The notes under the pieces: model-generated | Seen by the model: only the letters and a program-made list of their open reading frames with translations | Told to the model about the DNA's origin: nothing | Database searches by the model: none | Translations under genes and position numbers: made by a program | Origin: Streptomyces sp. R44 | GTDB taxonomy: Bacteria > Actinomycetota > Actinomycetes > Streptomycetales > Streptomycetaceae | Assembly: GCF_041053105.1 (NCBI RefSeq) | Contig: NZ_CP163444.1 | Location: 6,166,001-6,230,000, forward strand | Direction of reading: 5' to 3' | Length of the DNA stretch: 64,000 nt | Part shown: positions 8,976 through 33,194 of the stretch, one piece after another | Layout of the letters: every line of letters begins with the position of its first letter | Numbering within the stretch: position 1 is the stretch's first letter

Positions 8976-9262
8976 GTTCCCCTTGCGGGCGCGCTTCCGC
9001 CCGTTGTGGGCCCGCTTCCGCCGGGGCGGTGCCCACCCCGTTGTGGGCAGGCGTTCCGCAAGGGGCGGAACGGGTGGGCACAACGGAACGGCGCCCTTGC
9101 CGGCGCCAGAGGCTCCCGAGCCTGACCCGCACCGGATGCGCGCCGCGCCGGTGGTGCTGGTCCAGGCGCGGAACGCGGAGGCGCCGCGAGAGGGCGCCGT
9201 CCCGTGTGCCCACCCGTCCCGCCCTGCGGGACGATTTGCCCACACGGGGGTGCCCCGGGGCA
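8976..9262. repeat. Intergenic inverted-repeat element, copy A (fills the gap 8971-9328)
   Basis: This stretch of about 290 bp shows nested hairpins and matches two other places in the window (17838-18258 and 32959-33194). It contains the stems CGTTCCGC / GCGGAACG, framed by GTTGTG / CACAAC, in one half, and GTCCCGC / GCGGGAC, framed by CGTGTG / CACACG, in the other half in inverted order. Extra partial units precede the first half (about 9002-9040). Open frames through it are repeat-derived and have no homology. No transposase gene is present. Terminator, mRNA-stabilising or mobile (MITE-like) roles are all possible. Confidence 0.7.
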
Positions 9263-9328
9263 CCGTTCAGCCCGCCGCGTCGTCCACGTGGCGGACCGGA
9301 CCCCCGCCGCCCCGCACGTCGCGGCAGG

Positions 9329-10573
9329 ATGACCCCCGTGACCGTCATCCACATCCCCGGCTCCAAGTCCGTCACCGCCCGCGCCCTCTTCCTCGCCGCC
9401 GCCGCGGAAGGCACCACCACCCTCCTGCGCCCGCTCGTCTCCGACGACACCGAGGGTTTCGCCGAGGGCCTCACCGCCCTCGGCTATGCCGTGCGCCGCG
9501 AGCCGGACGCCTGGCACATCGAGGGCCGGCCCGCCGGGCCCGGTGCGGAGACCGCCGAGGTGTACTGCCGGGACGGCGCCACCACCGCCCGTTTCCTGCC
9601 GACCCTCGTCGCCGCAGGCCACGGCACGTACCACTTCGACGCCTCCGCGCAGATGCGCCGCCGTCCCCTCGGCCCGCTCAGCACCGCCCTGCGCGACCTC
9701 GGGGTCGACCTCCGGCACGGGGAGAAGGACGGCCACCACCCGCTCTCCGTGCACGCCGCCGGCGTGAAGGGCGGCGCGCTCACCCTGGACGCCGGGCAGT
9801 CCTCCCAGTACCTGACCGCGCTGCTGATGCTCGGCCCGCTCACCGCCGAGGGCCTCGACATCACCGTCACGGACCTGGTCTCGGAGCCGTACGTCGAGAT
9901 CACGCTCGCGATGATGCGGTCCTTCGGGGCCGAGGTCACCCGGGAGGGCCGTACGTACCGCGTCGCCCCCACCGGCTACCGCGCCCCCACCTACGGCATC
10001 GAGCCGGACGCCTCCACCGCCAGCTACTTCTTCGCCGCCGCCGCCCTCGAACCGGGCCGTTCCGTCACCGTCCCCGGCCTCGGGACGGGCGCCCTCCAGG
10101 GCGACCTGGCCTTCGTCGACGTGCTGCGCCGGATGGGCGCCGACGTCGAGATCACGGACACCGGGACGACCGTCCGCTCCACCGGCACCCTCCGCGGTCT
10201 CACCGTCAACATGCGGGACATCTCGGACACCATGCCGACCCTCGCCGCGATCGCGCCGTTCGCCGACGGCCCGGTCCGCATCGAGGACGTCGCCAACACC
10301 CGTGTCAAGGAGTGCGACCGTCTCGACGCCTGCGCCGAGAACCTCCGCCGCCTCGGCATCACCGTCGAGACCGGCCCCGACTGGATCGAGATCCACCCCG
10401 GCACCCCCACCGGGCCTGCCGAGATCGCCACCCACGGCGACCACCGGATCGTGATGTCCTTCGCGGTGACGGCGCTGCGCACCCCCGGGATCACCTTCGA
10501 CGACCCGGGCTGCGTGAAGAAGACCTTCCCGGACTTCCACGAGGTTTTCCACAGGTACACCCGGACCGCGTGA
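9329..10573 (+). CDS. aroA: 3-phosphoshikimate 1-carboxyvinyltransferase (EPSP synthase) family protein
   Basis: This 414-residue protein carries the EPSP synthase landmarks in order: [11 protein letters not shown] near residue 10, [54 protein letters not shown] and CVKKTFPDF at the C-terminus. The family transfers enolpyruvate from PEP to shikimate-3-phosphate. The PEP/glyphosate loop is unusual: residues 80-88 read CRDGATTAR, placing Ala where sensitive enzymes have the Gly of GNAGT. No other shikimate gene is adjacent and an inverted-repeat element lies just upstream, so this may be a paralogue rather than the main aroA. The ATG at 9329 is where homology starts; the frame runs further upstream through the repeat. 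Confidence 0.85.
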
Positions 10574-10607
10574 AGACCGCACAGCCTTTGCGGCAAGAAT
10601 GGGGGGC

Positions 10608-11867
10608 ATGAGCGACCGCCCCTCTCCTCTCGCCGATCCGCGCAGCGTCTTCTCCCCCGTGGATGGAGGCGCAGGCCGCCGGGACATCGTCGTCCTCGGC
10701 TCGACCGGGTCCATCGGCACCCAGGCCATCGACCTGGTGCTGCGCAATCCCGACCGATTCCGGGTCACCGCCCTGGCCGCCTCCGGCGGCCGGATCGGGC
10801 TGCTCGCCGAGCAGGCGCACCGGCTGAAGGTCGCCGCGGTCGCCGTGGCCCGCGAGGAGGCGCTGCCCGAGCTGCGCGAGGCGCTGAAGGCGCTGTACGG
10901 CTCCGAGCCGCTGCCCGAGCTCCTGGCGGGGCCGGACGCCGCGACCCAGCTGGCCGCCTCCCCGTGCCACACCGTCCTCAACGGCATCACCGGATCCATC
11001 GGCCTCGCGCCCACCCTCGCCGCCCTCGAAGCCGGCCGCACGCTCGCCCTCGCCAACAAGGAGTCGCTGATCGTCGGCGGCCCCCTGGTGAAGGCGCTCG
11101 CCAAGCCGGGCCAGATCATCCCGGTCGACTCCGAGCACGCGGCCCTCTTCCAGGCGCTCGCCGCCGGCACCCGTGCCGACGTCCGCAAGCTGGTCGTCAC
11201 GGCCTCCGGCGGCCCCTTCCGCGGCCGTACGCGTGAGCAGCTGGCCCATGTCACCCGCGAGGACGCGCTCGCCCACCCGACCTGGGCGATGGGCCCGGTG
11301 ATCACGGTGAACAGCGCGACCCTGGTGAACAAGGGCCTGGAGGTCATCGAGGCCCACCTGCTCTACGACATCCCGTTCGACCGCATCGAGGTCGTCGTCC
11401 ACCCCCAGTCGTACGTGCACTCGATGGTCGAGTTCACGGACGGCTCCACCCTCGCGCAGGCCACCCCGCCGGACATGCGCGGCCCGATCGCCATCGGCAT
11501 CGGCTGGCCCGAGCGGGTCCCGGACGCGGCCCCCGCCTTCGACTGGACCAAGGCCTCCACCTGGGAGTTCTTCCCGCTCGACACCGAGGCCTTCCCGTCC
11601 GTCGGCCTGGCCCGGCACGTCGGCGAGCTGGGCGGCACCGCCCCGGCCGTCTTCAACGCCGCGAACGAGGAGTGCGTGGAGGCGTTTCTCGCCGGACGGC
11701 TGCCGTTCAACGGAATCATGGATACCGTCACTGCGGTCGTCACCGAGCACGGAAAGCCCAGCAGGGGAACCTCGCTGACGGTCTCGGACGTCCTCGAAGC
11801 GGAGACCTGGGCGCGCGCCCGGGCCCGAGAGCTCGCAGCGAAGGCAACAGCGGAGGCCCGCGCATGA
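10608..11867 (+). CDS. dxr: 1-deoxy-D-xylulose 5-phosphate reductoisomerase
   Basis: This 419-residue protein makes 2-C-methylerythritol 4-phosphate from DXP with NADPH and a divalent metal (MEP pathway). The nucleotide-binding [12 protein letters not shown] lies about 30 residues in; [39 protein letters not shown] and the metal-site region around [14 protein letters not shown] follow in family order. Starts at 10599 and 10608 are both possible. A -10-like AAGAAT at 10595-10600, 18 bp after TGAAGA, would give a transcript beginning at or next to the ATG at 10608. The stop overlaps the start of the next gene by four bases (ATGA), so the protease is translationally coupled. Confidence 0.95.
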
Positions 11868-13171
11868 CCGAAATGCTCCTGTACGCCCTGGGCATCGTGC
11901 TGTTCGCCCTCGGTCTCCTCGTCTCCATCGCGTGGCACGAGCTCGGACACCTCTCCACGGCCAAGCTCTTCGGCATCCGCGTGCCGCAGTACATGGTCGG
12001 CTTCGGCCCCACCATCTGGTCGAGGAAGCGCGGCGACACCGAGTACGGACTCAAGGCCATCCCCGCCGGCGGCTACATCCGCATGATCGGCATGTTCCCG
12101 CCGGGCCAGGACGGCAGGATCGAGGCCCGCTCCACCTCGCCCTGGCGCTCGATGATCGAGGACGCCCGCGAGGCCTCGTACGAGGAGCTCCAGCCGGGCG
12201 ACGAGACGCGGCTGTTCTACACGCGCAAGCCGTGGAAGCGCGTGATCGTGATGTTCGCCGGACCGTTCATGAACCTGGTCCTGGCGGCGATGCTGTTCTT
12301 CGGCTCGATGATGACGATCGGCACCGCGGGGCAGACGACCCAGGTCGCCGGGGTCCAGAAGTGCGTCATCAAGCAGAGCGAGAAGCGCGAGAAGTGTGCG
12401 CCGGGCGACCCCGTCTCCCCGGCGTTCAAGGCCGGCCTGAAGGAGGGCGACAAGATCGTCGCCTTCAACGGCACGCCGGTGAACGACTGGGACACCCTCT
12501 CCGACCACATCCGCGACACCATCGGCCCCGCGACGATCACCATCGAGCGGGCCGGACAGCGCATCGACCTGCGCCCCACCCTCGTCTCCAACGAGGTGCC
12601 GAGGAAGGACGCGGACGGCAAGGTCGTCCAGCCGGTGGACTACATGCAGGCCGGATATCTCGGCTTCGCCTCCAAGACCGAGGTCGCGCCCCTCACCTTC
12701 GGCGAGACCACCGCGCGCATGACCGACCTCGTGGAGAACGGCGTCCACTCGGTCATCGCCCTCCCGGGCAAGATCCCCGGCCTGTGGGACGCCACCTTCG
12801 GCGACGGCAAGCGCGCCGAGGACTCCCCGGTCGGCGTCGTCGGCGCCGCCCGCATCACCGGCGAACTGATGACCGTCGAGGCCCCGCCGACGACGATCCT
12901 CGTGTGGTTCATGAACCTGCTGGTCATGTTCAACGTCTCGCTGTTCCTGTTCAACATGCTCCCGCTGCTGCCGCTCGACGGCGGACACATCGCGGGCGCC
13001 CTCTGGGAGTCCGTGCGCCGCCACGTCGCCCGGATCTTCAAGCGCCCCGACCCCGGCCCGTTCGACGTGGCCAAGCTGATGCCCGCCGCCTATGTGGTGG
13101 CCGGTGTCTTCGTCTGCTTCACGCTGCTCGTCCTCGCCGCCGACATCGTCAATCCGGTGAAACTGACGTAG
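11864..13171 (+). CDS. rseP: Site-2 zinc metalloprotease, M50 family (RseP/Rip1-like)
   Basis: This 435-residue membrane protease has the zinc site WHELGH near residue 25 in the first transmembrane helix. A PDZ domain (about residues 130-250, [19 protein letters not shown]) follows, and the second catalytic motif [15 protein letters not shown] sits in a C-terminal helix. Family members cut membrane proteins within the bilayer, for example anti-sigma factors in envelope stress responses. The position between dxr and ispG is common in actinobacteria. The start overlaps the dxr stop, indicating one operon. The substrate is not shown by the sequence. Confidence 0.93.
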
Positions 13172-13177
13172 CCCGCA

Positions 13178-13209
13178 GGGGGGCCGGACCCGGTGGTGTC
13201 CGGCCCCCC
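13178..13209 (+). terminator. Terminator after the M50 protease gene
   Basis: A perfect 12-bp stem (GGGGGGCCGGAC / GTCCGGCCCCCC) with an 8-nt loop starts 7 nt after the stop codon. A TAACCT element (13223-13228) follows before ispG and may be a separate -10 for that gene, although no clear -35 is visible. Confidence 0.65.
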
Positions 13210-13274
13210 GCCCCCGGGGCGGTAACCTCGGAGACCTGAGCCCGCCGACGCACAACCTTGAGGTTGCACTTCAG

Positions 13275-14413
<1,139 letters not shown>

Positions 14414-14432
<19 letters not shown>

Positions 14433-14485
14433 CGCCTCCCGGATCCGCCGGTCGCCATCGGCGCCCGACGCCTCCCGGATCCGAC
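14414..14485. repeat. 36-bp tandem duplication spanning the ispG stop codon
   Basis: Bases 14414-14449 and 14450-14485 are two copies of a 36-bp unit with only two differences. The first copy holds the last six sense codons of ispG and its TGA; in the second copy the TGA position reads CGA. The stop remains in the first copy, so the second copy is non-coding. Confidence 0.9.
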
Positions 14486-14497
14486 CGGAACCTCGCG

Positions 14498-14533
14498 CGA
14501 AGCCCCTCCACCCCACCCGGTGGAGGGGCTTCG
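14498..14533 (+). terminator. Terminator after ispG
   Basis: A perfect 15-bp stem (CGAAGCCCCTCCACC and its complement) with a 6-nt loop lies after ispG and before the acetyltransferase gene. A TACAGT at 14568-14573 may be the next -10. Confidence 0.8.
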
Positions 14534-14610
14534 TGCACAGGACGGGCCCCGCCGAGGGGCACGGGGGTACAGTGCGGAGACCAGCAGATCCGTACCGTGA
14601 GGCCCCCCAC

Positions 14611-15456
14611 GTGCTGACAGAGACCACCACTCGGGTCCTCGAACCCGCCGACCTCGGCGCCGCGCTCGCCGTCCTGGAGAGCGCCCCCGTCGAGAACGCC
14701 TTCGTGACCGCCCGTGTCCAGGTCGCCGGGCTCGACCCCTGGCGCCTCGGCGGTGAGATGTGGGGCTGGTACACCGAGGGCAGACTCCGCTCGCTCTGCT
14801 ACTCCGGCGCCAACCTCGTCCCCATCTGCGCCACCCCCGAGGCCGTCCGCGCCTTCGCCGACCGGGCCCGCAGGATCGGCCGCCGCTGCTCCTCGATCGT
14901 CGGCCCCGCCGAGGCCACCGGCGAGCTGTGGCGGCTCCTGGAGCCCAGCTGGGGACCCGCCAGGGACGTCCGCGCCCGCCAGCCCCTGATGGTCGCCGAG
15001 GAGTCCTCCACCACCGTCGTGCCCGATCCGCTGGTGCGCCGCGTCCGCAAGGACGAGATGGAGGTGATCATGCCCGCCTGCGTGGCCATGTTCACCGAGG
15101 AGGTCGGCGTCTCCCCGCTCGCCAACGACGGCGGACTGCTCTACCAGGCCCGCGTCGCCGAGCTCGTCGGCTCCGGCCGCTCCTTCGCCCGCATCGAGGA
15201 CGGCAAGGTCGTCTTCAAGGCCGAGATCGGCGCCGCCACCCGCCAGGCCTGCCAGATCCAGGGCGTCTGGGTCGCCCCCGAGCACCGCGGCAAGGGCCTC
15301 TCCGAGACGGGCATGGCCGCCGTCCTCCAGTACGCCCTCGCCGACGTCGCCCCGGTCGTCAGCCTGTACGTCAACGACTTCAACACCCCGGCGAGGGCCG
15401 CGTACCGCCGCGTCGGCTTCCGCGAGACCGGCGCGTTCATGAGCGTGCTGTTCTGA
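14611..15456 (+). CDS. GNAT acetyltransferase with N-terminal DUF4081-like domain
   Basis: This 281-residue protein has an N-terminal half of about 130 residues that resembles the domain often fused to actinobacterial GNAT proteins. The C-terminal half is a GNAT fold with the acetyl-CoA loop VWVAPEHRGKGLSETGMAA (about residues 217-235) and the SLYVNDFNTPARAAYRRVGF strand-helix end. The reaction would be acyl transfer to an unknown amine, possibly a protein. The GTG at 14611 is chosen because homology begins right there. A second, unrelated-length GNAT gene follows 42 bp later. Confidence 0.85.
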   Translation: MLTETTTRVLEPADLGAALAVLESAPVENAFVTARVQVAGLDPWRLGGEMWGWYTEGRLRSLCYSGANLVPICATPEAVRAFADRARRIGRRCSSIVGPAEATGELWRLLEPSWGPARDVRARQPLMVAEESSTTVVPDPLVRRVRKDEMEVIMPACVAMFTEEVGVSPLANDGGLLYQARVAELVGSGRSFARIEDGKVVFKAEIGAATRQACQIQGVWVAPEHRGKGLSETGMAAVLQYALADVAPVVSLYVNDFNTPARAAYRRVGFRETGAFMSVLF

Positions 15457-15498
15457 ACCCGCTGTGCGCGGCGCGCGGGCGCTTGTAGGGTGCGCCGC

Positions 15499-16044
15499 AT
15501 GGATGACGCACAGGTCGTGATCGGTCCGGTCAATCTCGCCGCCCGGGTGGACGAGGCCCTCGCCGTGCAGGCGGTCGCCTTCGGCCTGGACGCGGGCGAG
15601 GTCGCCGTACGCCGCCACATCGTGCTGCGCCACCTCCTCAGCCCCGGCGCCCGCGCCTACGGGGCCACCACCCCCGACGGACGGCTCGTCGGCTTCGTGT
15701 ACGGGATGCCCAACGACCGCACCCACTGGTGGTCCACCGTCGTCGAGACGTATCTGCGGGCCACCGGCACCGCCGACTGGCTCGACGACTCCTTCGTCAT
15801 CACCGAACTGCACGTCCACCCCGACTTCCAGGGCCTGGGCGCCGGCCGCGGGCTGATCACCACCATCACCGACACCGCCGACGAGAAGCGCTCCATCCTC
15901 TCCGCGATCGACACCGACTCCCCGGCCCGCGGCCTCTACCGCTCCCTCGGCTACGTCGACCTCGCCCGGCAGGTCCACTTCCCCAGCGCCCCCCGCCCGT
16001 ACGCGGTCATGGGCGCCCCGCTGCCGCTCAGGCGCCGGAACTGA
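15499..16044 (+). CDS. GNAT family N-acetyltransferase
   Basis: This is a 181-residue single-domain GNAT protein. The acetyl-CoA binding segment is [20 protein letters not shown] (near residues 98-117), followed by [15 protein letters not shown] at the end of the fold. The substrate is unknown. The ATG at 15499 lies 8 nt after the last base of a TAGGGT hexamer (15486-15491), so the mRNA may have almost no leader; a GTG nine bases upstream is less likely. The gene stands between another GNAT gene and proS. Confidence 0.85.
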
Positions 16045-16115
16045 TTTCTCCTGCCAGGGGCCGCCCGGCTAACCTCGGGCCCATCACTTTCAGTCCCGGC
16101 AGGAGTACGAGAACC

Positions 16116-17819
16116 ATGGCCAACGCACCGGTCCAGCGCATGTCCCAGTTGATGGCGAAGACGCTGCGCGACGACCCGGCGGACGCCGAGGTCCTCAGCC
16201 ACAAGCTCCTCGTCCGCGCCGGCTACGTCCGCCGCACCGCCGCCGGCATCTGGAGCTGGCTGCCCCTCGGCAAGAAGGTCCTCTCCAACATCGAGCGGAT
16301 CGTCCGTGAGGAGATGGACGCCATCGGCGCGCAGGAGGTCACCCTGCCCGCGCTGCTGCCCCGTGAGCCGTACGAGGCGACCGGCCGCTGGGACGAGTAC
16401 GGTGCCGAGCTCTTCCGCCTCCAGGACCGCAAGGGCGGCGACTACCTCCTCGGGCCGACCCACGAGGAGATCTTCACCCTGCTGGTGAAGGACCAGTGCT
16501 CGTCCTACAAGGACCTGCCGGTGATCCTCTACCAGATCCAGAACAAGTTCCGCGACGAGGCCCGCCCCCGCGCCGGCATCCTGCGCGGCCGCGAGTTCCT
16601 CATGAAGGACTCGTACTCCTTCGACACGGAGGACGAGGGCCTCGCCCAGTCCTACGCCCTGCACCGCCAGGCCTACCGGCGCGTCTTCGAGCGCCTCGGC
16701 CTCGACTACCGCATCGTCGCCGCCACCGCCGGCGCCATGGGCGGCTCGAAGTCCGAGGAGTTCCTCGCCCCGGCCGAGGCCGGCGAGGACACCTTCGCCG
16801 ACTGCCCGAACTGCGACTTCGCCGCGAACACCGAAGCCGTCTACCAGACGGTGAAGCCGGTCGACGGCGCCGCGGTCCCCGCCGCCGAGGAGATCCCCAC
16901 CCCCGACACCCCGACGATCGAGACCCTCGCGGCCTCCCTCGGCGTGCCGGCCTCCGCGACCCTCAAGAACCTCCTGGTGAAGGTCGACGGCGAGATCGTC
17001 GCCATCGGCGTCCCCGGCGACCGCGAGGTCGACATGGACAAGGTCGAGGAGCACTTCGGCCCGACCGCGACGGTCGAGCTGGTGACGGAGGAGGACTTCG
17101 CGCAGCGCAGCGACCTCGTCCGCGGCTACGTCGGCCCCCAGGGCCTGGAGAAGGTCACCTACATCGCCGACCCGCGCGTGGCGCCCGGCACCGCGTGGAT
17201 CACGGGTGCCAACAAGGAGGGCATGCACGCGAAGAACGTCGTCGCGGGCCGTGACTTCGAGGTCTCCGAGTACGTCGACGTCGTCGTCGTCCAGGAGGGC
17301 GACCCGTGCCCCAAGTGCGGCACCGGCCTCAAGCTGGACCGCGCCATCGAGATCGGCCACATCTTCCAGCTCGGCCGCAAGTACGCCGACGCCCTCAAGC
17401 TCGACGTCCTCGGCCAGAACGGCAAGCCGGTCCGCGTGACCATGGGTTCGTACGGCATCGGCGTCTCCCGCGCGGTCGCGGCGCTCGCCGAGCAGACGGC
17501 GGACGAGAAGGGTCTGTGCTGGCCGGCGGAGGTCGCCCCGGCCGACGTCCACGTCGTCGCCGCCGGCAAGGCCCTCCAGACGGAACTGGCCCTGGAGGTC
17601 TCGGAGAAGCTCTCCGCGGCCGGCCTCCGCGTCCTGGTCGACGACCGCGCGGGCGTCTCCCCGGGCGTCAAGTTCACCGACGCGGAGCTCATGGGCGTCC
17701 CGAAGATCCTCGTCGCGGGGCGTCGCTCGGGTGAGGGCGTGGTGGAGCTGAAGGACCGCCGGACGGGCGAGCGCGAGGAACTGACGGTCGCGGAGGCCCT
17801 CACCCGCCTGACGGCCTGA
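16116..17819 (+). CDS. proS: Prolyl-tRNA synthetase, bacterial type with editing domain
   Basis: This 567-residue class II aminoacyl-tRNA synthetase charges tRNA-Pro. Motif 1 lies around residue 65, motif 2 is in [21 protein letters not shown] (near residue 150) and motif 3 is in [14 protein letters not shown] (near residue 445). The inserted editing domain occupies about residues 230-400, with the conserved lysine region ATLKNLLVK. The anticodon-binding domain ends the protein. The length is the usual 560-580. The ATG at 16116 has AGGAG upstream. An inverted-repeat element fills the space to the next, convergent gene. Confidence 0.97.
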
Positions 17820-17837
17820 CCCACCGGCGCGGCCGCC

Positions 17838-18258
17838 CCCCGCCGGTGTGGGGCCCGCGCCCTTGCGGGGCGGTGCCCCTCGCCCACCCCCGTGTGGGCA
17901 ATCGTCCCGCTGGGGCGGGACGGGTGGGCACACGGGACGGCGCCCTTCAGCGGCGCCTCCGCGTTCCGCGCCTGGACCCGCACCGACCGCGCGGCGCACG
18001 ACGTGGTGCGGGTTCAGGCGCGGGAGCCTCTGGCGCCGGCAAGGCGCGGGTCCGTTGTGCCCACCCGTTCCGCCCCGGCGGAACGCATGCCCACAACGAG
18101 GGAGGGCACCGCCCCGGCGGAACGCGTGCCCACGACGGGGGTGGGCACCGCCCCGGCGGAACGCGTGCCCACGACGGGGGTGGGCACCGCCCCGGCGGAA
18201 CGCGTGCCCACGACGGGGGTGGGCACCGCCCCGGCGGGACGCGTGCCCACAACGGGCG
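17838..18258. repeat. Intergenic inverted-repeat element, copy B with expanded 39-bp tandem array (fills 17820-18263)
   Basis: This copy is in the opposite orientation to copies A and C. The hairpin module with CGTGTG / CACACG comes first (17900-17940). A central near-palindrome follows, whose arms GCGCCTGGACCCGCACC and GGTGCGGGTTCAGGCGC pair with one G-U. Then comes the GTTGTG-type module. From 18072 a 39-bp unit recurs at 18072, 18111, 18150, 18189 and 18228 (the last partial). The element occupies the whole space between the convergent ends of proS and the stomatin-like gene, so it may also end both transcripts. The 78-residue frame read from the array is repeat-derived and not counted as a gene. 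Confidence 0.75.
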
Positions 18259-18263
18259 CGGCG

Positions 18264-19166
18264 TCACGCGTGCTTTTCGTGGGGGGCCGGTTCGACCGAC
18301 GTGCCCGTCAGGTCCTCCACCGCCTCCTCCGCCGCCGCCCGCCCCTTCAGATACGCCTCGCTCAGCGGCGCCGCCGCCGACGACCCCTCCACCTCCGCCG
18401 GGCCCCCCGGCGTCGCGCGTTCCAGGAACCTCAGCAGTTCCACCGGAATCGGCAGGACGAGCGTCGAGTTCTTCTCCGCCGAGACCGCCATCACCGTCTG
18501 CAGCAGTCGGAGCTGCAGCGCGGCCGGCTGGTCCGACATCACCCCCGCCGCCTCCGCCAGCTTCTTCGAGGCCTGGAGCTCCGCGTCCGCGTTGATGACC
18601 CGCGCCCGCCGCTCCCGGTCCGCCTCCGCCTGCCGGGCCATGGAGCGCTTCATGGTCTCCGGCAGGGACACGTCCTTGATCTCGACCCGGTCGATCGCGA
18701 CGCCCCAGCCCATCGCAGGACTGTCGAGCATCAGCTCAAGGCCCTGGTTGAGCTTCTCGCGGTTGGACAGCAGATCGTCGAGGTCGCTCTTGCCGATGAT
18801 CGACCGCAGCGAGGTCTGCGCCATCTGGGAGACCGCGAACTTGTAGTCCTCCACGCGCACCAGCGCGTCGGCCGCGTCGACGACCTTGAAGTAGACGACC
18901 GCGTCGACCCGTACCGTCACGTTGTCCCGGGTGATGCCCTCCTGCGCGGGCACGGGCATCGTGACGATCTGCATGTTCACCTTGTGCAGGCGGTCGACGA
19001 CCGGAACGATCATCGTGAAGCCGGGCGAGCGGATGTCGTCACGCAGCCGGCCGAAGCGGAACACGACACCCCGCTCGTACTGCTTGACCACCCGCGCCGC
19101 CGCCGCCGCGTACACCGCGGCCGCCGCGGCCGCGCCGGCCGCCGCCATGAGCAGCTCTTCGATCAT
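18264..19166 (-). CDS. SPFH/Band 7 (stomatin-like, slipin) membrane protein
   Basis: This 300-residue protein has a short N-terminal hydrophobic segment (residues 6-28, Ala-rich). The Band 7 domain follows (YERGVVFRFGRLRDDIRSPGF, then VTVRVDAVVYFKV and AQTSLRSIIGKSDLDDLLSNR). An Ala/Glu-rich coiled-coil region then carries the typical AVSAEKNSTLVLPIPVELLRF end. Slipins form membrane-bound oligomers, often with a partner NfeD protease; no NfeD gene is adjacent. The ATG at 19166 has AGGGGG upstream; a longer frame to 19199 lacks a ribosome-binding site. The pseudokinase gene lies 46 bp upstream on the same strand. Confidence 0.9.
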   Translation of the reverse strand: MIEELLMAAAGAAAAAAVYAAAAARVVKQYERGVVFRFGRLRDDIRSPGFTMIVPVVDRLHKVNMQIVTMPVPAQEGITRDNVTVRVDAVVYFKVVDAADALVRVEDYKFAVSQMAQTSLRSIIGKSDLDDLLSNREKLNQGLELMLDSPAMGWGVAIDRVEIKDVSLPETMKRSMARQAEADRERRARVINADAELQASKKLAEAAGVMSDQPAALQLRLLQTVMAVSAEKNSTLVLPIPVELLRFLERATPGGPAEVEGSSAAAPLSEAYLKGRAAAEEAVEDLTGTSVEPAPHEKHA

Positions 19167-19212
19167 CACGGCCCCCTGGATTGAGCCGAAAAGGTACAAA
19201 AAGGGTATTCCC

Positions 19213-20112: not shown

Positions 20113-20128
20113 GCGTACGTTGTTCCTT

Positions 20129-20156
20129 CGGTCGGGGCGGGACTCGGTCGGGGCGG
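20129..20156. repeat. 12-bp direct repeat
   Basis: CGGTCGGGGCGG occurs at 20129-20140 and 20145-20156, just after the DUF4439 stop and upstream of the pseudokinase gene (minus strand). It is possibly a regulatory site for that gene. Chance is not excluded in such GC-rich DNA. Confidence 0.45.
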
Positions 20157-21274: not shown

Positions 21275-21312
21275 GAACCCACAACAGCACACGCGGCCGA
21301 GGAGTCACCCGG

Positions 21313-21810: not shown

Positions 21811-21812
21811 CC

Positions 21813-22808: not shown

Positions 22809-22882
22809 GACCGTTTTTGGCCAACAGCTGTTCGATTTTTGCCCCAAACGGGTGAGGTCGGTACGGGGAGGTAGACTTAATC

Positions 22883-23164
22883 GTGTCTGGCCGGACGCAT
22901 GCCTGCGCGTGCCCTGAGCGAACCTGTGTGGGATGCCGGGAGCGAGCGGCCAAGAGCGATCTGCTGCGGATCGTGGTGAATAAGGACGAGTGCGTCCCTG
23001 ATCATCGCGGTACGCTGCCCGGCCGGGGTGCGTACCTGCACCCCGCCGTGGTCTGTCTCGACCTGGCGGTCCGCCGCCGGGCCTTTCCGAGGGCCTTCAA
23101 GGTCCAGGGACCGCTCGACACGGAGGCACTCCGCCACCACGTCGAGCAGGCGGCACCGCAGTGA
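22883..23164 (+). CDS. ylxR: YlxR (RnpM) family RNA-binding protein
   Basis: This 93-residue protein has the DUF448 signature: [17 protein letters not shown] near residue 15 and [10 protein letters not shown] near residue 45. Members bind RNA, and the Firmicute protein has been linked to RNase P. It lies between nusA and infB as in most bacteria. The GTG at 22883 has GGGGAGG upstream. The 74-bp gap after nusA is AT-rich for this genome and could hold a promoter, but no convincing hexamer pair was found. Confidence 0.9.
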
Positions 23165-23229
23165 ACAAGAAGTACGGCACGGAACACCGTGCGGTCAGGT
23201 ACCTCGCGAGTTGGAAGTAGGTCGAGATT

Positions 23230-23299
23230 GCGATGAGCACTCGATGAGTACGCGATGAGTACGCCCATGAAGTAGCGACGGTCCGGCGGTAACCGGACC
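23230..23299 (+). promoter_or_regulatory. infB leader: triple 11-bp repeat and hairpin
   Basis: Three 11-bp tandem units (GCGATGAGCAC, TCGATGAGTAC, GCGATGAGTAC) occupy 23230-23262. A 7-bp hairpin, GGTCCGG / CCGGACC with a 6-nt loop, follows at 23280-23299, and the AAAGGAG ribosome-binding site comes next. The 150-bp gap between ylxR and infB has no gene. A role in infB expression is an inference from position. Confidence 0.5.
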
Positions 23300-23314
23300 T
23301 CACAAAGGAGCGAA

Positions 23315-26404
<3,090 letters not shown>

Positions 26405-26546
26405 CGCGTAGGGCTGCGTCCGGGGCCGGTCGGCGGAAGTATTTCCGTCGATCGGCCCCGGCCGTTGCGTGTACGGTTCTGGTGTCCCTGCCAAGCGACG
26501 GCGTGGCAGGCCACCGAACCCGAACCGGCGGGACATCCGGCACTAC

Positions 26547-26840
26547 ATGTACGTGGGGACTCTGTCCTTCGACCTGCTCCTCGGCGACGTCCACTCGTTG
26601 AAGGAGAAACGCTCCGTCGTCCGGCCCATCGTCGCCGAGCTCCAGCGCAAGTTCTCCGTGAGCGCGGCCGAGGTGGGCGACCAGGACCTCCATCGCAGGG
26701 CCCGTCTCGGTGTCGCGCTGGTGTCCGGGGACCCGGGGTTCCTCTCGGACGTGCTCGACCGCTGTGAGCGGCTCGTCGCCGCACGTCCGGAGGTGGAGCT
26801 GCTTTCGGTGCGCCGCAGGCTCCACACTGATGAAGACTGA
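26547..26840 (+). CDS. ylxP: YlxP (DUF503) protein
   Basis: This 97-residue protein matches DUF503: it starts MYVGTLSFDLLLGDVHSLKEKRSVV and continues with a ferredoxin-like fold carrying AAEVGDQDLHRRARLGVALVS. The gene commonly sits between infB and rbfA and is thought to belong to ribosome assembly, but no activity is established. An upstream frame exists (from 26469), but homology begins at 26547. Confidence 0.88.
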   Translation: MYVGTLSFDLLLGDVHSLKEKRSVVRPIVAELQRKFSVSAAEVGDQDLHRRARLGVALVSGDPGFLSDVLDRCERLVAARPEVELLSVRRRLHTDED

Positions 26841-26870
26841 TTTGAGCAAGGCAAAGAAGGAGAAGGACCA

Positions 26871-27311
26871 GTGGCCGACAACGCGCGGGCGAAGAAGCTG
26901 GCAGACCTCATCCGGGAGGTGGTCGCCGAGAAGCTGCAGCGCGGCATCAAGGACCCCCGCCTGGGTACGCACGTGACCATCACGGACACCCGCGTCACCG
27001 GTGACCTGCGGGAGGCCACGGTCTTCTACACGGTCTACGGCGACGACGAGGACCGCGCGAGCGCGGCGGCCGGCCTGGAGAGCGCCAAGGGCATCCTCCG
27101 TTCGGCCGTGGGCCGGGCGGCGGGGACCAAGTTCACCCCGACCCTGACCTTCGTGGCCGACGCCCTCCCGGAGAACGCCCGCACCATCGAGGACCTCCTC
27201 GACAAGGCGCGCGCCTCCGACGCCCAGGTGCGTCAGGCCTCCTCGGGCGCCACCTTCGCGGGTGACGCCGACCCCTACAAGAAGCCGGGCGAGGACGAAG
27301 CCGCCGAATGA
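26871..27311 (+). CDS. rbfA: Ribosome-binding factor A
   Basis: This 146-residue 30S maturation factor has the KH-like RbfA fold, with the family segments IREVVAEKLQRGIKDPRLG and VTITDTRVTGDLREATVFYT near the N-terminus. An acidic C-terminal tail of about 25 residues follows. The GTG start lies after AAGGAGAAGG. The last four bases overlap the truB start (ATGA), so the two are translationally coupled. Confidence 0.95.
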   Translation: MADNARAKKLADLIREVVAEKLQRGIKDPRLGTHVTITDTRVTGDLREATVFYTVYGDDEDRASAAAGLESAKGILRSAVGRAAGTKFTPTLTFVADALPENARTIEDLLDKARASDAQVRQASSGATFAGDADPYKKPGEDEAAE

Positions 27312-28207
27312 GCAACACGACCAAGACGCCCGACGGCCTTGTCATCGTCGACAAGCCGTCGGGCTTCACTTCGCACGACGTCGTGGCCAAGATGCGCGGG
27401 ATCGCCAGGACCCGCCGCGTCGGCCACGCCGGCACGCTCGACCCCATGGCCACGGGCGTCCTCGTCCTCGGCGTGGAGCGGGCCACCAAGCTCCTCGGTC
27501 ACCTCGCGCTGACCGAGAAGGAGTACCTGGGCACCATCCGCCTGGGCCAGACGACGATCACCGACGACGCCGAGGGCGAGATCACGGCGTCGGTCGACGC
27601 TTCGAAGGTCACCCGCGAGCAGATCGACGCCGGCGTCGCCGAGCTGACCGGCGCCATCATGCAGGTGCCGTCGAAGGTCTCCGCGATCAAGATCGACGGC
27701 AAGCGGTCGTACGCGCGCGTGCGCGGCGGCGAGGAGTTCGAGATCCCGGCCCGCCCGGTCACCGTCTCCTCCTTCCGGGTGTACGACGTCCGCGAGGCGA
27801 CCGCCGAGGACGGCACCCCCGTCGTCGACCTGGTCGTCTCGGTGGTCTGCTCCTCCGGCACGTACATCCGGGCGCTCGCCCGGGACCTCGGCGCCGGACT
27901 CGGCGTGGGCGGCCACCTGACCGCGCTGCGCCGCACCCGGGTCGGCCCGTACAAGCTGGACTCCGCCAGGACCCTGGACCAGCTCCAGGAGGACCTCACG
28001 GTCATGCCGGTCGCCGAGGCGGCTGCGGCGGCGTTCCCGCGCTGGGACGTCGACGAGAAGCGGGCCAGACTGCTGCTCAACGGCGTCCGCCTGGAGATGC
28101 CGGAGTACCCGAAGGGTCCCGTCGCGGTCTTCGGACCGGAGGGGAAGCTGCTCGCGCTGGTCGAGGACCAGCGGGGCAAGGCGAAGAGCCTGGCCGTCTT
28201 CGGCTGA
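27308..28207 (+). CDS. truB: tRNA pseudouridine-55 synthase TruB
   Basis: This 299-residue enzyme converts U55 of tRNA to pseudouridine. The catalytic aspartate is in GHAGTLDPMATGVLVLG (near residue 45), preceded by VDKPSGFTSHDVV. The KVSAIKIDGKRSYARVRGGE segment and the GTYIRALARDLG motif follow, and a short C-terminal PUA-like domain ends the protein. It is the last gene of the rimP operon and is closed by the hairpin at 28223-28256. Confidence 0.95.
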   Translation: MSNTTKTPDGLVIVDKPSGFTSHDVVAKMRGIARTRRVGHAGTLDPMATGVLVLGVERATKLLGHLALTEKEYLGTIRLGQTTITDDAEGEITASVDASKVTREQIDAGVAELTGAIMQVPSKVSAIKIDGKRSYARVRGGEEFEIPARPVTVSSFRVYDVREATAEDGTPVVDLVVSVVCSSGTYIRALARDLGAGLGVGGHLTALRRTRVGPYKLDSARTLDQLQEDLTVMPVAEAAAAAFPRWDVDEKRARLLLNGVRLEMPEYPKGPVAVFGPEGKLLALVEDQRGKAKSLAVFG

Positions 28208-28222
28208 GCGAAGGTCTCCGTC

Positions 28223-28256
28223 GTGGGGCGGGCACGCATGCGCGTGCCCGCCCCAC
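28223..28256 (+). terminator. Terminator of the rimP-truB operon
   Basis: A perfect 15-bp stem (GTGGGGCGGGCACGC and its complement) with a 4-nt loop starts 15 nt after the truB stop. Confidence 0.85.
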
Positions 28257-28414
28257 GCTTTCCCCCCCTCGGTTTCCCCCGCACCAACTCTGTCCCGCAG
28301 AGCCGCTGAAATTCACCCCATCGGGGAGGCGCTCGGAGTGAACGGGGGAGTGTCGGGGGGCGCGTTTTCCCGCGAACGCCTCCGCGTGATCACCGGCCGC
28401 CTACCGTCGACACC

Positions 28415-31400
28415 ATGGGAAGCGGGGACCTGGCGACGCTGGTGCGCATCTGCGATCCGGCGGGCCGGCCACGCGGCACCGGTTTCCTCGCCGACCATCA
28501 CGGCACGGTCGTCACCAGCCACGAAGCCGTCGACGGGCTCAGCCGCGTCGTCCTGCACGCCCCCGGCGACCGGATCTGGCTCGCCGAGGCCGAGGCCGTC
28601 ACCCCGCTGCCCGAGAGCGGCCTCGCGCTCGTACGGACCGAAGGACTCGGCGGCCGCCCGCTGCCGCTCGCGACCCGGCCCGAGATCGAACCCGGCACCT
28701 ACGTGCGGATCGCCGCCCAGGGCTGGCGCGAGGCCCGTGTCCTCGGCCCCGCCGCCGTCACGTACACCGCCGCCGACCGCTTCCACGCCCTCGCCGACGC
28801 CCTCGAACTCGCCATCGGCACCGAAGGCGCCGACGCGCTGCGCCGCGGCGGACCGGCCGCCGGAGGACCCGTCCTCGACACCGTCACCGGCACCGTCCTC
28901 GCCGTCCTCGGCACCGCCCTGCACGGCGACCGCCAGGCCGCCGGATACGCCGTCCCGCTCCGGCCCGCCGGCCCGCTCACCGCCCTCCTGCGGCGCAACG
29001 CGGCCACCGTCCCCGCGTACGGACCCGACCTCAACCTCGCCGCGATCCTGGAGCTCACCGCCACCTCCACCGGTCCCGTACGCGACCCGGACCCCTGGCC
29101 CGAACCCGTCGAACGGCCCGACTGCGTCCGCGAGTTCGCCCGCTTCACAGCCGGCGACACCCCCGTCCTCGCCCTCGTCGGCGCCCCCGGCACCGGCCGC
29201 ACCACCGCCCTCGCCGCGCTCTGCGCCCGCCGTGCCCGGGGCGTCGCACCCGCGCCGACCGTCCGGCTGCGCGGCGCCGACCTGCGCGCCGAGGACCGGT
29301 CGCTCGCCGACGCCGTCGGCCGCGCCCTGCACCAGGCCGGCCGGATCGTCGCCGCCTCCGGCGCGCTCGGCGACACCACCACCGCGACCCCGGAGCGGGC
29401 CGCCGCACTCGCCCGGGACGCGGGCCGCCCGCTGCTCGTCGTCCTCGACGGCCCCGAGGAGATGCCGCCGCTCCTCGCCCACCGGCTCGCCGACTGGACG
29501 ACGGCCACCGAGGAATGGCTCCGCACCCACCAGGCCCACCTCGTCACCGCCTGCCGCCCCGAGCACTGGGAACAGGCCGGCACGCTCTACACCCCGGGAG
29601 CCCTGCACCGCACGGCGACGGGCACCGACGACGGCCTGCCCGCCGCGCTCGCCCTCGGGCCGTACTCCGAGGCGGAGGCCCGAGCCGTACGCGAGGGGTA
29701 CGGGATCGGGGAGACGGACCTCGCCCCGGCGGACGCCCGGCACCCGCTCGCCCTGCGGCTGCTCGCCGAGGTCCGGGCGGCGCTGCCCGGGGAGGTGCCC
29801 GGGCGGCCCGGCCGCGAGGAGATCTTCACCGCCCACCTGGACCTGATGTGCCTGCGGGCCGCCGTCCGGATCGCCGCCGGCTCCCGGCCGCTCCTGAGGG
29901 GGACGGCCGTCCGCCGGCTCGCCGCCCGCGTCACCGGCCGGCTGCACGAGGCGGCCCGCCGGTGCCTCGGCCCCGGGCACGGCGTCCTCGACCGGGCCTC
30001 CTTCGAGGAACTCTTCCCCTGGCGCGAGGGCTGGGCCTCGGCGGTCCTCACCGAGGGCCTCCTCGTCCCGGCGGGCTCCGGCTACCGCTTCGCCCACGAG
30101 GAGCTCGCCGACTGGGTCCAGGCCGCCCACCTGGACCTGGACACGGCGCTGGACGCCCTGGTGCACGGGCGCGACGGGGACCCGGCGGCGGGTGCGGCCG
30201 ACACCCCCGCCGGGCTGCCGCCCGTTCCCCGGCATCGGATCGGGCCCGTGCTGCAGGCCTTGCTGCTGCTGCACCGGGAGCGGGGACCCGCCGGGCTCGC
30301 GCCGCGACTCGCCGGGCTCGCCGAGGCACTCGGGCGGTTCGCCGGCGACGGGCAGGACGGCGAAGGGCAGGCAGCGGACGGGCGGGCCGGGGACGGGCCG
30401 GCCAGGGACGGGTGGGCCGGGGACGGGCCCGGCGACCGGCACGTCGGGGACGGGCTCGGCGGCGACCGGCACGCCGGGGACGGGGCCTGGTGGGCCGCGC
30501 GCCTGTTCCGGGAGAGCGTGCGACGCCTGCCGGACCCGCGCCCGTACCTGCCCGTCCTGCGCCTGCTCGCCGACCTGATCGGGTCCCGCCCCGACCCGCA
30601 CCGGGTGTTCGCCCCCTTCGGCCCCCCGTTCTGGCTGGCCCTGCCCCTCGCCAAGGACGAACGCATCGACCTCCTGCGCCGCCTGGTCCCGGCCGACCCG
30701 CCACCGGCCGGTCGGGCGCACGAAAGCGGCCGGAGCCTGGACGCCGTCGCCGGCATGCTCGTCGCCGACCCCCGGGGCGTCCAGCCGCTCCTCTGCCGCT
30801 GGTTCGGCGACCCCCGGCCCGCCGTCGCCACCGCCGCCCAGGCCCTCCTGCACGGCCACCGGGCGCTCGCCGTCGACGACCTGTGCGAGGCGCTCGTCGC
30901 CACCGCCCACCCGCTCGCCGACGGCCTCCTCGCCGCCCTCGCCCGGGACGAGCCCTCCGCGCTCTGCCGTGCCGTCGACCGCTGGGCCCACGACGACGGG
31001 CGCCCGGAGCGGCGGGTCGCGGCCGCCGCGTACGGACAGCTCCTCGCCGGACACGTCACCACCTCCGCCGACCGCGAGCTCCTCCGCTACGCCGCCCTCG
31101 CCCTGCTCGCCCGCCCCGGCGACCAGACCCTCCACGGCGCCGCCCTCGGCCTCCTCGTCCGCGACCCGCACAGCCGCGCCCGGCACCTCCCGCGCGCCCT
31201 CGCCGAGCCCCGGGTGCCCGCGCCGGCGCTCGCCGAGGCCCTCGCGACCCACCCCGAGGAGGCCCTCATCGGCTTCCGGGCCCGGCTGATCGGCACCGGG
31301 GAGGTGCCGGCCGCCGCCCTGCGGGCCCTCGCCGAGGTCGACACGCCCGCCCTCGCCCGCCGGATCGCCGCCCTCGTCCGCGACTACGCCGCCCGTCACC

Positions 31401-31960
31401 CCGAGGGCGCGCCCCTCGTCGCCGCCTTCGTCGACCGCCGCCTCGAAGACGGCCCGGCCGCACGAGCGGTCCTCTTCCCGCTGGTCACCGGCCTGATCCG
31501 GGGCCGCCCCGCCCCACTGCGGCGCGCCCTCGCCCCCGTCCTCGCCGCCCCCGGCACCGGGGCCTCCCGGCATCTGCGGGCCGAGCTGCTCGACGTACTC
31601 CTGGAGCACGAGCGGTACGAGGCCGAGACCGGGGAGCTGACCGTCCTGGAGGCCCTGCTGCGGGCCGCCGCGGAGGGCGCGGAGCGGCGCAGCGCCCCGC
31701 GCACCCGGGAGCTCGTCCTCCGGGCCGGCGCCCTGTGCGCCCGTACCCCCGAAGGCGCGTGGCGGCTCGACCGGGCCCTCGCCGGGGCCGTCCGTGAGCT
31801 GCCCGCCTTCGCCGCGCTCCTGGCCGCCTGGACGGTCGCCGACCCCGGTGACTGGGCCCCGCTGTTCGGATCGGAGACCCTCCAGGCGCTGCGGAGTCCC
31901 GGCACTGCCATGCCGATGCGTACCGACGGCCGTGGACATGGCAGTCTTAGACCTGCGTAA
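28415..31960 (+). CDS. Trypsin-like pseudoprotease fused to a STAND-type NTPase and helical repeats
   Basis: This is a 1181-residue protein. Residues 1-200 have a trypsin-fold pattern (GTGFLADHHGTVVTSHEAV), but the residue before the GGP motif, where the catalytic Ser should be, is Ala149 (PAAGGPVL), and no Asp precedes LALVRTEG. Residues 250-400 form a P-loop ATPase with GAPGTGRTT (Arg262 instead of the usual Lys) and the Walker B-like LLVVLDGPEEM (Asp345), like STAND signalling ATPases. Helical HEAT-like repeats follow to the C-terminus, interrupted by a Gly/Asp-rich low-complexity stretch near residues 640-695. It lies between truB and ribF on the same strand. The architecture is that of a sensor or defence-type switch; the actual role is unknown. 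Confidence 0.75.
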   Translation: MGSGDLATLVRICDPAGRPRGTGFLADHHGTVVTSHEAVDGLSRVVLHAPGDRIWLAEAEAVTPLPESGLALVRTEGLGGRPLPLATRPEIEPGTYVRIAAQGWREARVLGPAAVTYTAADRFHALADALELAIGTEGADALRRGGPAAGGPVLDTVTGTVLAVLGTALHGDRQAAGYAVPLRPAGPLTALLRRNAATVPAYGPDLNLAAILELTATSTGPVRDPDPWPEPVERPDCVREFARFTAGDTPVLALVGAPGTGRTTALAALCARRARGVAPAPTVRLRGADLRAEDRSLADAVGRALHQAGRIVAASGALGDTTTATPERAAALARDAGRPLLVVLDGPEEMPPLLAHRLADWTTATEEWLRTHQAHLVTACRPEHWEQAGTLYTPGALHRTATGTDDGLPAALALGPYSEAEARAVREGYGIGETDLAPADARHPLALRLLAEVRAALPGEVPGRPGREEIFTAHLDLMCLRAAVRIAAGSRPLLRGTAVRRLAARVTGRLHEAARRCLGPGHGVLDRASFEELFPWREGWASAVLTEGLLVPAGSGYRFAHEELADWVQAAHLDLDTALDALVHGRDGDPAAGAADTPAGLPPVPRHRIGPVLQALLLLHRERGPAGLAPRLAGLAEALGRFAGDGQDGEGQAADGRAGDGPARDGWAGDGPGDRHVGDGLGGDRHAGDGAWWAARLFRESVRRLPDPRPYLPVLRLLADLIGSRPDPHRVFAPFGPPFWLALPLAKDERIDLLRRLVPADPPPAGRAHESGRSLDAVAGMLVADPRGVQPLLCRWFGDPRPAVATAAQALLHGHRALAVDDLCEALVATAHPLADGLLAALARDEPSALCRAVDRWAHDDGRPERRVAAAAYGQLLAGHVTTSADRELLRYAALALLARPGDQTLHGAALGLLVRDPHSRARHLPRALAEPRVPAPALAEALATHPEEALIGFRARLIGTGEVPAAALRALAEVDTPALARRIAALVRDYAARHPEGAPLVAAFVDRRLEDGPAARAVLFPLVTGLIRGRPAPLRRALAPVLAAPGTGASRHLRAELLDVLLEHERYEAETGELTVLEALLRAAAEGAERRSAPRTRELVLRAGALCARTPEGAWRLDRALAGAVRELPAFAALLAAWTVADPGDWAPLFGSETLQALRSPGTAMPMRTDGRGHGSLRPA

Positions 31961-31999
31961 AGGCGAACAGGGCGAACAGGCGGACGAGGAGCGGTCACA

Positions 32000-32953
32000 G
32001 TGCAGCGCTGGCGTGGCTTGGAGGACATCCCCCAGGACTGGGGACGCAGCGTCGTCACCATCGGCTCCTACGACGGGGTGCACCGTGGACACCAGCTGAT
32101 CATCGGGCGTGCCGTCGAGCGCGCCCGGGAGCTGGGGATCCCCTCCGTCGTCGTCACCTTCGACCCGCACCCCTCCGAGGTCGTGCGGCCCGGCAGCCAC
32201 CCGCCGCTGCTCGCCCCGCACCACCGGCGCGCGGAGCTGATCGCGGAGCTCGGGGTGGACGCGGTGCTCGTGCTGCCGTTCACCGCCGAGTTCTCGCAGC
32301 TGTCCCCGGCCGACTTCATCGTGAAGGTGCTGGTCGACAAGCTGCACGCGAAGGCCGTCATCGAGGGCCCCAACTTCCGCTTCGGCCACCGGGCCGCGGG
32401 CAACGTCGCGTTCCTCACCGAGCTCGGCGCCACCTACGACTACGAGGTCGAGGTCATCGACCTGTACGTCAGCGGGGCCGCCGGCGGCGGCGAGCCCTTC
32501 TCCTCCACCCTCACCCGCCGCCTCGTCGCCGAGGGCGACATGACCGGCGCCGCCGAGATCCTGGGCCGCCCGCACCGGGTCGAGGGCATCGTCGTCCGCG
32601 GCGCGCAGCGCGGCCGCGAGCTCGGCTTCCCGACGGCCAACGTCGAGACCCTGCCGCACACGGCGATCCCGGCGGACGGCGTCTACGCGGGCTGGCTGAC
32701 GGCCGCGGGGGAGCGGATGCCGGCGGCGATCTCGGTCGGCACGAACCCGCAGTTCGACGGGACGGAGCGGACGGTCGAGGCGTACGCGATCGACCGCGAG
32801 GGCCTCGACCTGTACGGGCTGCACGTGGCCGTGGACTTCCTGGCGTACGTGCGCGGCATGCTCAAGTTCGACACCCTGGACGACCTGCTGCAGGCGATGG
32901 CGGGCGACGTGAAGCGCTGCCGCGAACTGACGGAGCAGTACGACCAGGCCTGA
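32000..32953 (+). CDS. ribF: Bifunctional riboflavin kinase/FAD synthetase
   Basis: This 317-residue enzyme makes FMN and FAD. The N-terminal nucleotidyltransferase domain has SVVTIGSYDGVHRGHQ and VVTFDPHPSEVV, and the later EGPNFRFGHRAAGN. The C-terminal kinase domain has GRPHRVEGIVVRGAQRGRELGFPTANV and ends with the typical LYGLHVAVDFLAYVRGMLKF. The GTG start is 39 bp after the STAND gene's stop. An inverted-repeat element separates it from the convergent ABC importer. Confidence 0.95.
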   Translation: MQRWRGLEDIPQDWGRSVVTIGSYDGVHRGHQLIIGRAVERARELGIPSVVVTFDPHPSEVVRPGSHPPLLAPHHRRAELIAELGVDAVLVLPFTAEFSQLSPADFIVKVLVDKLHAKAVIEGPNFRFGHRAAGNVAFLTELGATYDYEVEVIDLYVSGAAGGGEPFSSTLTRRLVAEGDMTGAAEILGRPHRVEGIVVRGAQRGRELGFPTANVETLPHTAIPADGVYAGWLTAAGERMPAAISVGTNPQFDGTERTVEAYAIDREGLDLYGLHVAVDFLAYVRGMLKFDTLDDLLQAMAGDVKRCRELTEQYDQA

Positions 32954-32958
32954 CGGCG

Positions 32959-33194
32959 CGTTGTGGGCATGCGTTCCGCCGGGGCGGAACGGGTGGGCAC
33001 AACGGACGGCGCCCTTGCCGGCGCCAGAGGCTTCCGCGCCTGAACCCGCACCGGATGCGCGGCGCCTTCGGGGCGCGGGTCGGCGCGGAACGCGGAGGCG
33101 CCGCTGAAGCGCGCCGTCCCGTGTGCCCACCCGTCCCGCCCTGCGGGACGATTGCCCACACGGCGGGTGGGCACCGCCCACAACGGGGGGCGCC
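32959..33194. repeat. Intergenic inverted-repeat element, copy C
   Basis: This is the most compact of the three copies, about 236 bp. The left module (32959-33006) has the outer stem CGTTGTG / CACAACG and inner stem CGTTCCGC / GCGGAACG. The right module (about 33113-33163) is inverted, with GTCCCGC / GCGGGAC and CGTGTG / CACACG. GGCGCC palindromes flank both modules on the inside. It fills the gap between the convergent ends of ribF and the ABC ATPase gene. Confidence 0.75.

Follow-up and report, generated by a model that had tools for sequence, protein, structure and literature searches.

Three copies of a heterodimeric palindromic repeat

Three intergenic copies of a palindromic repeat lie in the DNA analysed here (the window), a stretch of 64,000 nucleotides (nt) of Streptomyces sp. 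R44 taken from contig NZ_CP163444.1 (assembly GCF_041053105.1, positions 6,166,001 to 6,230,000). Our main result, which the three copies of the initial annotation could not reveal, is that the content of this element turns over and inverts at fixed sites. We interpret the element, with a probability of roughly 0.6, as a non-coding, heterodimeric repeat resembling repetitive extragenic palindromic (REP) sequences, which would serve as a bidirectional hairpin at gene 3' ends and whose copies would be homogenised by recombination.

The element measures about 206 nt. Its hairpins, H1 to the left and H2 to the right on the opposite strand, flank a core that spans about 115 nt, is quasi-palindromic and varies at its tip. 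H1 has the outer stem CGTTGTG/CACAACG and the inner stem CGTTCCGC/GCGGAACG, H2 the outer stem CGTGTG/CACACG and the inner stem CGTCCCGC/GCGGGACG, and the hairpin length is about 46 nt. Terminal inverted repeats are present, with 46-nt arms that are 85% complementary in copy B and 42-nt arms that are 83% complementary in copy C. Two hairpin modules in opposed orientation around a central near-palindrome, as initially annotated, are all present in the three copies, and the copies themselves are real. Their exact limits differ from the ranges first proposed (8976-9262, 17838-18258 and 32959-33194): the repeated unit is narrower, and the excess consists mostly of degenerate half-units. The copies and their parts are:

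9039..9246, + strand: copy A, full heterodimer with H1 left and H2 right, between tandem genes (also row L027)
9039..9085, + strand: hairpin H1 of copy A (CGTTGTG..CACAACG)
9203..9246, - strand: hairpin H2 of copy A (CGTGTG..CACACG)
8977..9038, + strand: degenerate half-units left of copy A
17891..18098, - strand: copy B, full heterodimer, between convergent genes
17891..17934, + strand: hairpin H2 of copy B
18053..18098, - strand: hairpin H1 of copy B
18109..18258, no strand assigned: 39-nt tandem half-units right of copy B
32959..33162, + strand: copy C, full heterodimer, between convergent genes, with a stop codon 5 nt before it
32959..33004, + strand: hairpin H1 of copy C
33005..33119, no strand assigned: quasi-palindromic core of copy C with the variable tip
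33120..33162, - strand: hairpin H2 of copy C

Copy number and spread in the genus

The R44 genome (G000) is one contig of 8,892,027 bases (8.89 Mb), in which a two-arm pattern that requires both inner arms matched exactly at no fewer than 69 full copies, compared with 0 for the reversed pattern. BLAST of the same genome gave at least 40 full-length copies (40 of 272 candidates were scored). Copies beyond the first three, for which the initial annotation had proposed a covariance-model search, were thus found by pattern and by BLAST. The motif of the hairpin 3' arm has 153 matches, against 0 when reversed, and these numbers set beside the 69 full copies indicate that most arms sit in full elements. 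None of the 69 copies comes within 1 Mb of a chromosome end (P ~2e-8 under uniform placement, with a limit picked after seeing the data). Eleven single-arm places listed were, by reading, five near-full variants, five halves stopping near the tip and one solo palindrome.

The half-elements (L304, L310 with two, L311 and L312) end at or near CCCGCACC beside the variable tip, as if a fold-back had been cut. At L305 and at L229 (site B in G161), both between convergent genes, the core is missing and a pair of H1 3' arms joined back to back makes up a solo palindrome.

Of 150 genomes of the genus, 5 contain the exact full pattern, R44 among them. It was also matched in no fewer than 120 stretches of named genomes; its bearers include S. 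litmocidini, S. tanashiensis, S. nymphaeiformis, S. zaomyceticus and S. wedmorensis. Pattern counts in the 12 relatives G150 to G161 were 47, 39, 7, 16, 25, 16, 11, 2, 2, 13, 21 and 6, one of the six matches in G161 resembling a chance match. Using copy C as the query, BLAST detected matches at E up to 1e-10 in 18 of the 150 genomes, again including our own (five candidates scored per genome). Only short matches (~40-75 nt, once ~104) were seen in 12 of these 18, most of them corresponding to one hairpin, which suggests that the hairpin module is more widespread than the heterodimer. Overall, the element is amplified in one Streptomyces clade, and the literature searched contained no earlier description of this repeat (most subscription journals lay outside the coverage). 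One record (L092), named Microtetraspora glauca NRRL B-3735, has element coordinates identical to those of G076, a genome placed in the same genus as R44; the record is probably misnamed.

Turnover and shuffling of element content

We compared 60 pairs of an R44 locus and a relative's locus in which both flanks matched (80-97% identity), representing 40 R44 sites by our count. Several sites gave more than one pair, three further pairs without the pattern between the flanks were dropped, and in one retained pair (L043/L166) the flanks are 3.3 kb apart. Since bearing the pattern was the criterion for picking the relatives' loci, these pairs are uninformative on occupancy. The element had the same orientation in 40 pairs and was inverted in 20. 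The alignment score per base of the core was 0.609 for matched pairs, equal to that of random R44 partners (0.609 +/- 0.006), compared with 0.658 within the genome. Additionally, 58 of the 69 R44 copies have their nearest neighbour inside their own genome, where 25 would be expected. A clear single case is L067/L106, whose flanks are 97% and 94% identical and whose element is inverted and dissimilar.

Linkage within the genome was assessed over 48 biallelic sites in 52 R44 copies. The r2 fell from 0.27 (up to 3 nt) to 0.083 (4-10 nt), 0.040 (11-30 nt) and 0.024 (>80 nt), where ~0.019 is expected without linkage, and of the site pairs separated by more than 10 nt, ~80% showed all four combinations. 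Seven multi-base modules exhibited no association at p<0.05 in 16 of 21 pairs, with copies whose module fell outside the named types left out pair by pair. Mean pairwise distance rose from 0.02-0.04 in the hairpins to 0.10-0.12 in the core, and reached 0.42 in the tip. Variants more than ~10 nt apart are therefore nearly unlinked within the genome.

Occupancy was followed at sites traced regardless of whether they bore the element. Sites B and C were traced in 15 genomes, two of them identical and hence 14, by reading the printed sequences by eye: site C held 4 full elements, 1 remnant and none in 9 genomes, and site B held 2 full, 3 shortened or partial elements, 1 solo palindrome and none in 8. 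Eleven further R44 sites, selected without considering occupancy, were classified by the number of arm motifs that the gene gap contained. Two arm motifs were present at 7 of the 11 sites in S. litmocidini (G151), at 1 of 10 evaluable sites in S. diastatochromogenes (G156), and at no site in G004 (11 sites, two of them with one motif), G015 (11 sites) or G098 (9 evaluable sites). Here, we show that many sites are common to a close relative and that their content is not shared.

Position relative to genes and hairpins at empty sites

Based on gene calls from a simple codon-usage gene caller, none of the 69 copies lies in a called gene; convergent genes flank 30 of them, tandem genes 37 (17 in forward and 20 in reverse orientation) and divergent genes 2. 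The background comprised the gaps in 1.46 Mb of R44 and relatives' DNA. Compared with background gaps of at least 60 nt (16% convergent, 28% divergent), the copies show a convergent excess (p=4e-8) and a divergent deficit (p=6e-8), and both hold against all background gaps (19% convergent, 19% divergent; p=4e-6 and p=7e-5, respectively). The median distance from the element to a stop codon is 26 nt (n=97) and to a start codon 104 nt (n=41), with element edges set at a fixed offset from the arms.

Orthologous gaps that lack the element were examined for other hairpins. A stem of at least 12 bp occurs in 7 of 15 (47%) element-free convergent gaps and in 24% of 17 element-free tandem gaps, where shuffles gave 4% and 0%, respectively. 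Among sampled gaps (80 per kind), such a stem was found in 41% of convergent, 21% of tandem and 5% of divergent ones. Because the empty convergent sites of relatives often carry a long ordinary hairpin, we interpret the element as a hairpin acting at gene 3' ends in both directions, and these ordinary hairpins constitute the main support for that predicted role. The role is also in keeping with the terminators of the genus: a Term-seq study of 13 species, S. venezuelae among them (PMC12207403), describes them as long, stable hairpins behind the stop codon that are U-poor afterwards. In G156, the L017 site, a tandem gap counted as hairpin-bearing, has a single hairpin whose left arm is like H1 and whose right arm is like H2, as if an element had collapsed.

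Covariation and folding of the hairpins

The fold of the hairpin module covaries across Streptomyces beyond controls. The initial annotation had seen compensatory change of both arms among its three copies; such change is real between module types, and within the three copies it amounts to one difference between H1 and H2. An RNAalifold analysis of 56 full copies, 52 from R44 and 4 from relatives, displayed almost no covariation (covariation term +0.18; double change in 2 of 58 pairs), with 17 R44 copies that have replaced hairpins or altered ends excluded. Given that covariation within the family is almost nil, the argument rests on cross-species hairpins. These were aligned as 44 distinct hairpins, of which 21 come from nine other genomes, in stretches with a single hairpin, and 23 from loci that bear the element; the rows were picked by a pattern fixing TGTGGG and GGTGGGCACA.

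Judged against shuffled alignments, as had been suggested at the outset, the 44 hairpins exceed expectation on three of five measures, the covariation score among them. That score was 0.234 compared with 0.082 +/- 0.010 after shuffling (reached in 0 of 500), and slid controls gave at most 0.062; cells changed on both sides numbered 56 compared with 16.2, and paired cells made up 96.3% compared with 87.9% (both 0 of 500). Pairs with change on both sides (5, shuffled 4.6) and further pair types (13, shuffled 11.3) were not in excess. The clearest covarying pairs are the outer pair beside the invariant stem (UA, GC, CG) and an inner pair (UA, CG, GC, UG). The two outermost pairs also vary and are unpaired in 13 and 9 of the 44 hairpins. 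Independent covariation events are modest in number, and many of the 44 hairpins are related. The side loops that were initially described as constant are invariant here as GGC and GGTGGG, a constancy that derives in part from the pattern by which the rows were chosen.

Within 25 nt after 13 of 20 solo hairpins (L323-L342) there is a CCACC, in 11 cases as CCACCGG, several of these being paralogues of one genome. It is complementary to GGTGG of the internal loop, and the two could possibly form a pseudoknot.

The whole element may also fold as one. A 214-nt stretch containing copy C is predicted to fold at -165.6 kcal/mol (z -9.3), and for copy C one long hairpin (-165.5 kcal/mol) is more stable than two local hairpins (-135.6 kcal/mol). 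Both folds may form, and the covariation evidence concerns the local hairpins only. A known RNA family was ruled out by a search of 4227 Rfam families, which gave no match at the three copies at gathering scores and none for copy C at E up to 1.

In some copies (G000 loci L034, L056, L061, L067, L072, L081 and others), another hairpin, with GGCTTCGCTCGAGCAGGGGG, takes the place of the inner stem in H1 or H2. This motif is found at 22 places in G000 and in 12 of 61 Streptomyces genomes, our own included; some of the 12, G026 for example, are genomes in which no element was found.

Interpretation and alternative explanations

Under the reading that we favour, transcription from either side would yield a very stable fold that ends or protects the transcript, and the element would stand in for the ordinary hairpin often present at that place in relatives. 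Copies would be homogenised, flipped and reshuffled by gene conversion-like exchange with one another, and their near-palindromic DNA might help such recombination; gene conversion as the activity is what we infer. A perfect 200-bp palindrome would be unstable, and the difference between H1 and H2 may persist for this reason. Among the roles listed initially, a terminator or RNA-stability element fits the position data best, and a resemblance to a miniature inverted-repeat transposable element (MITE) holds in part. A bolder version, which we regard as doubtful, would see a 'sexual' population of transcription-end elements, in which a dedicated putative recombination or hairpin-processing activity swaps short tracts and flips elements among dozens of fixed sites on the chromosome. 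Terminators would then evolve in concert within species, and the hypervariable tip and the tip-cut halves would be marks of repeated cleavage of an extruded hairpin.

Several observations weigh against the favoured reading. Pairs in the same orientation reach core and tip scores of 0.619 and 0.307, compared with 0.609 and 0.267 for random partners, and the seven pairs with both flanks at least 92% identical have a mean core score of 0.642, two of them being inverted. The orthologue's mean rank among the relatives' copies is 0.415 instead of 0.5, and 13 of 60 orthologues rank in the top tenth; the matched pairs may have kept some trace of descent. Five of the 21 module pairs are associated, and the low linkage could come in part from repeated mutation at the same positions, which the multi-base nature of the modules makes less likely as its whole cause. 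A near-full variant (L308), outside the 69 copies, lies inside a called gene, as do 3 of the 20 solo hairpins of other genomes (7 are convergent, 8 tandem and 2 divergent). No U-run follows either hairpin in the sequences. A 12-bp stem is missing from about half of the convergent sites that are empty and from 13 of the 17 empty tandem ones; at the tandem sites L061 and L008 there is no strong hairpin in G015 and G098, and sites of this type do not fit the role of a pure substitute. Replacement is supported in R44 itself by the finding that 2 of 30 flank remainders of convergent sites, outside the element, contain a stem of 12 bp or more; this count is biased toward fewer stems by the shorter length of the remainders (median 53 nt, compared with 80 nt in element-free gaps).

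The element could instead be selfish and still mobile, a REPIN- or MITE-like miniature that inserts into, or survives only in, hairpin-rich 3' regions, so that purifying selection would explain its placement and repeated hotspot insertion its differing contents. Its dispersed, non-coding occurrence in both orientations, its lineage-specific amplification (69 down to 1 exact full-pattern matches per element-bearing genome), the hairpins nested in hairpins, the half-elements, and the tandem sites that in some relatives are only a short gap without a strong hairpin would all agree with this. We nevertheless consider it unlikely, given that the 7 of 11 occupancy-blind sites common to S. litmocidini would demand strong hotspots and that searches for the traces of mobility were negative. 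The Y1 transposase of RAYT type (PF01797) is absent from the R44 genome and from 12 of 13 element-bearing genomes searched, the exception being G098; the matches in G098 and in the solo-hairpin genome G040 have no hairpin arm motif within ~1.5 kb, and RAYT/IS200-type mobilisation was ruled out on these grounds. Target-site duplication in the 52 of 69 R44 copies with both ends located averaged 0.50 nt (mean longest), compared with 0.51 +/- 0.13 in shuffled pairs, although old insertions could have lost it. A phage or plasmid origin was likewise ruled out, with the exact hairpin motif not found in viral contigs and no PLSDB match at E 1e-6. An autonomous relative with the same ends was found at none of the 11 single-arm places read among the first 100 of 153 motif places, and in place of a gene-carrying transposon between single arms these held the variants, halves and solo palindrome described above. 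MITEs are dispersed, non-coding and bounded by terminal inverted repeats, and the element shares all three properties; it differs from them in that no partner transposon with matching ends was seen, no target duplication is evident and the halves are cut near the tip. The MITE-like nature proposed initially therefore stands as regards dispersal, and is opposed by the shared sites, the lack of flanking duplication and the search that found no transposase partner.

Alternatively, the repeat might organise the chromosome, as gyrase or nucleoid-protein binding sites comparable to bacterial interspersed mosaic elements (BIMEs), located in convergent gene gaps, in which positive supercoils accumulate. 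The convergent excess, the location of every copy more than 1 Mb from the chromosome ends under the limit noted above, and the conserved internal-loop sequences, which suggest protein recognition, would be in line with such a function. However, more than half of the copies (37 of 69) are between tandem genes, and base-pair covariation with changing sequence points to folding and not only to a duplex binding site, so we find this explanation highly improbable.

Comparison with known systems

The closest kin of the element are REP and REPIN repeats. According to PMC3116915 and PMC3733652, REP sequences are extragenic, short palindromic modules that have inverted doublets as the apparent unit, commonly form heterodimers and are predicted to fold as hairpins in single-stranded DNA or RNA; PMC3686654 and PMC2817692 are further sources on these repeats. 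PMC3733652 also mentions REP heterodimers for which there is no obvious explanation. Our repeat likewise forms many extragenic inverted doublets of palindromes (69 full copies, 0 in called genes). In contrast to REP and REPIN repeats, its hairpin ends (CGTTGTG to CACAACG in H1, CGTGTG to CACACG in H2) bear neither a GTAG nor a CGTC tag, its own genome has no RAYT gene, its hairpin is longer (~46 nt), it has a core of ~115 nt and few singlets among the places read, and its content is shuffled almost freely at fixed sites. We do not claim REPIN membership because no RAYT was found. A 1988 review of REP sequences by Higgins, cited in PMC4681348, reportedly asks in its title whether gene conversion is involved.

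Like the Streptomyces terminators of intrinsic type described in PMC12207403, the element has long hairpins of very high stability downstream of the stop codon, and there is little enrichment of U beyond them. In terms of classical intrinsic terminators, the stable hairpin behind the stop codon is present and the U-run is absent. Unlike the Streptomyces terminators, it is a repeated family with two hairpins and a core over ~206 nt and not a unique sequence, and termination here is predicted.

If the favoured reading is true, many gene 3' ends in a Streptomyces clade would be served by one repeated element whose copies recombine mutually. This would represent a bacterial case in which short, dispersed repeats evolve in concert with no known transposase, and would offer hundreds of natural variants, together with a natural comparison of filled and empty sites across species, for determining what Streptomyces terminators require.

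Elsewhere in the window, an Actino-pnp RNA was detected at 55369-55428 on the + strand (61.2 bits).

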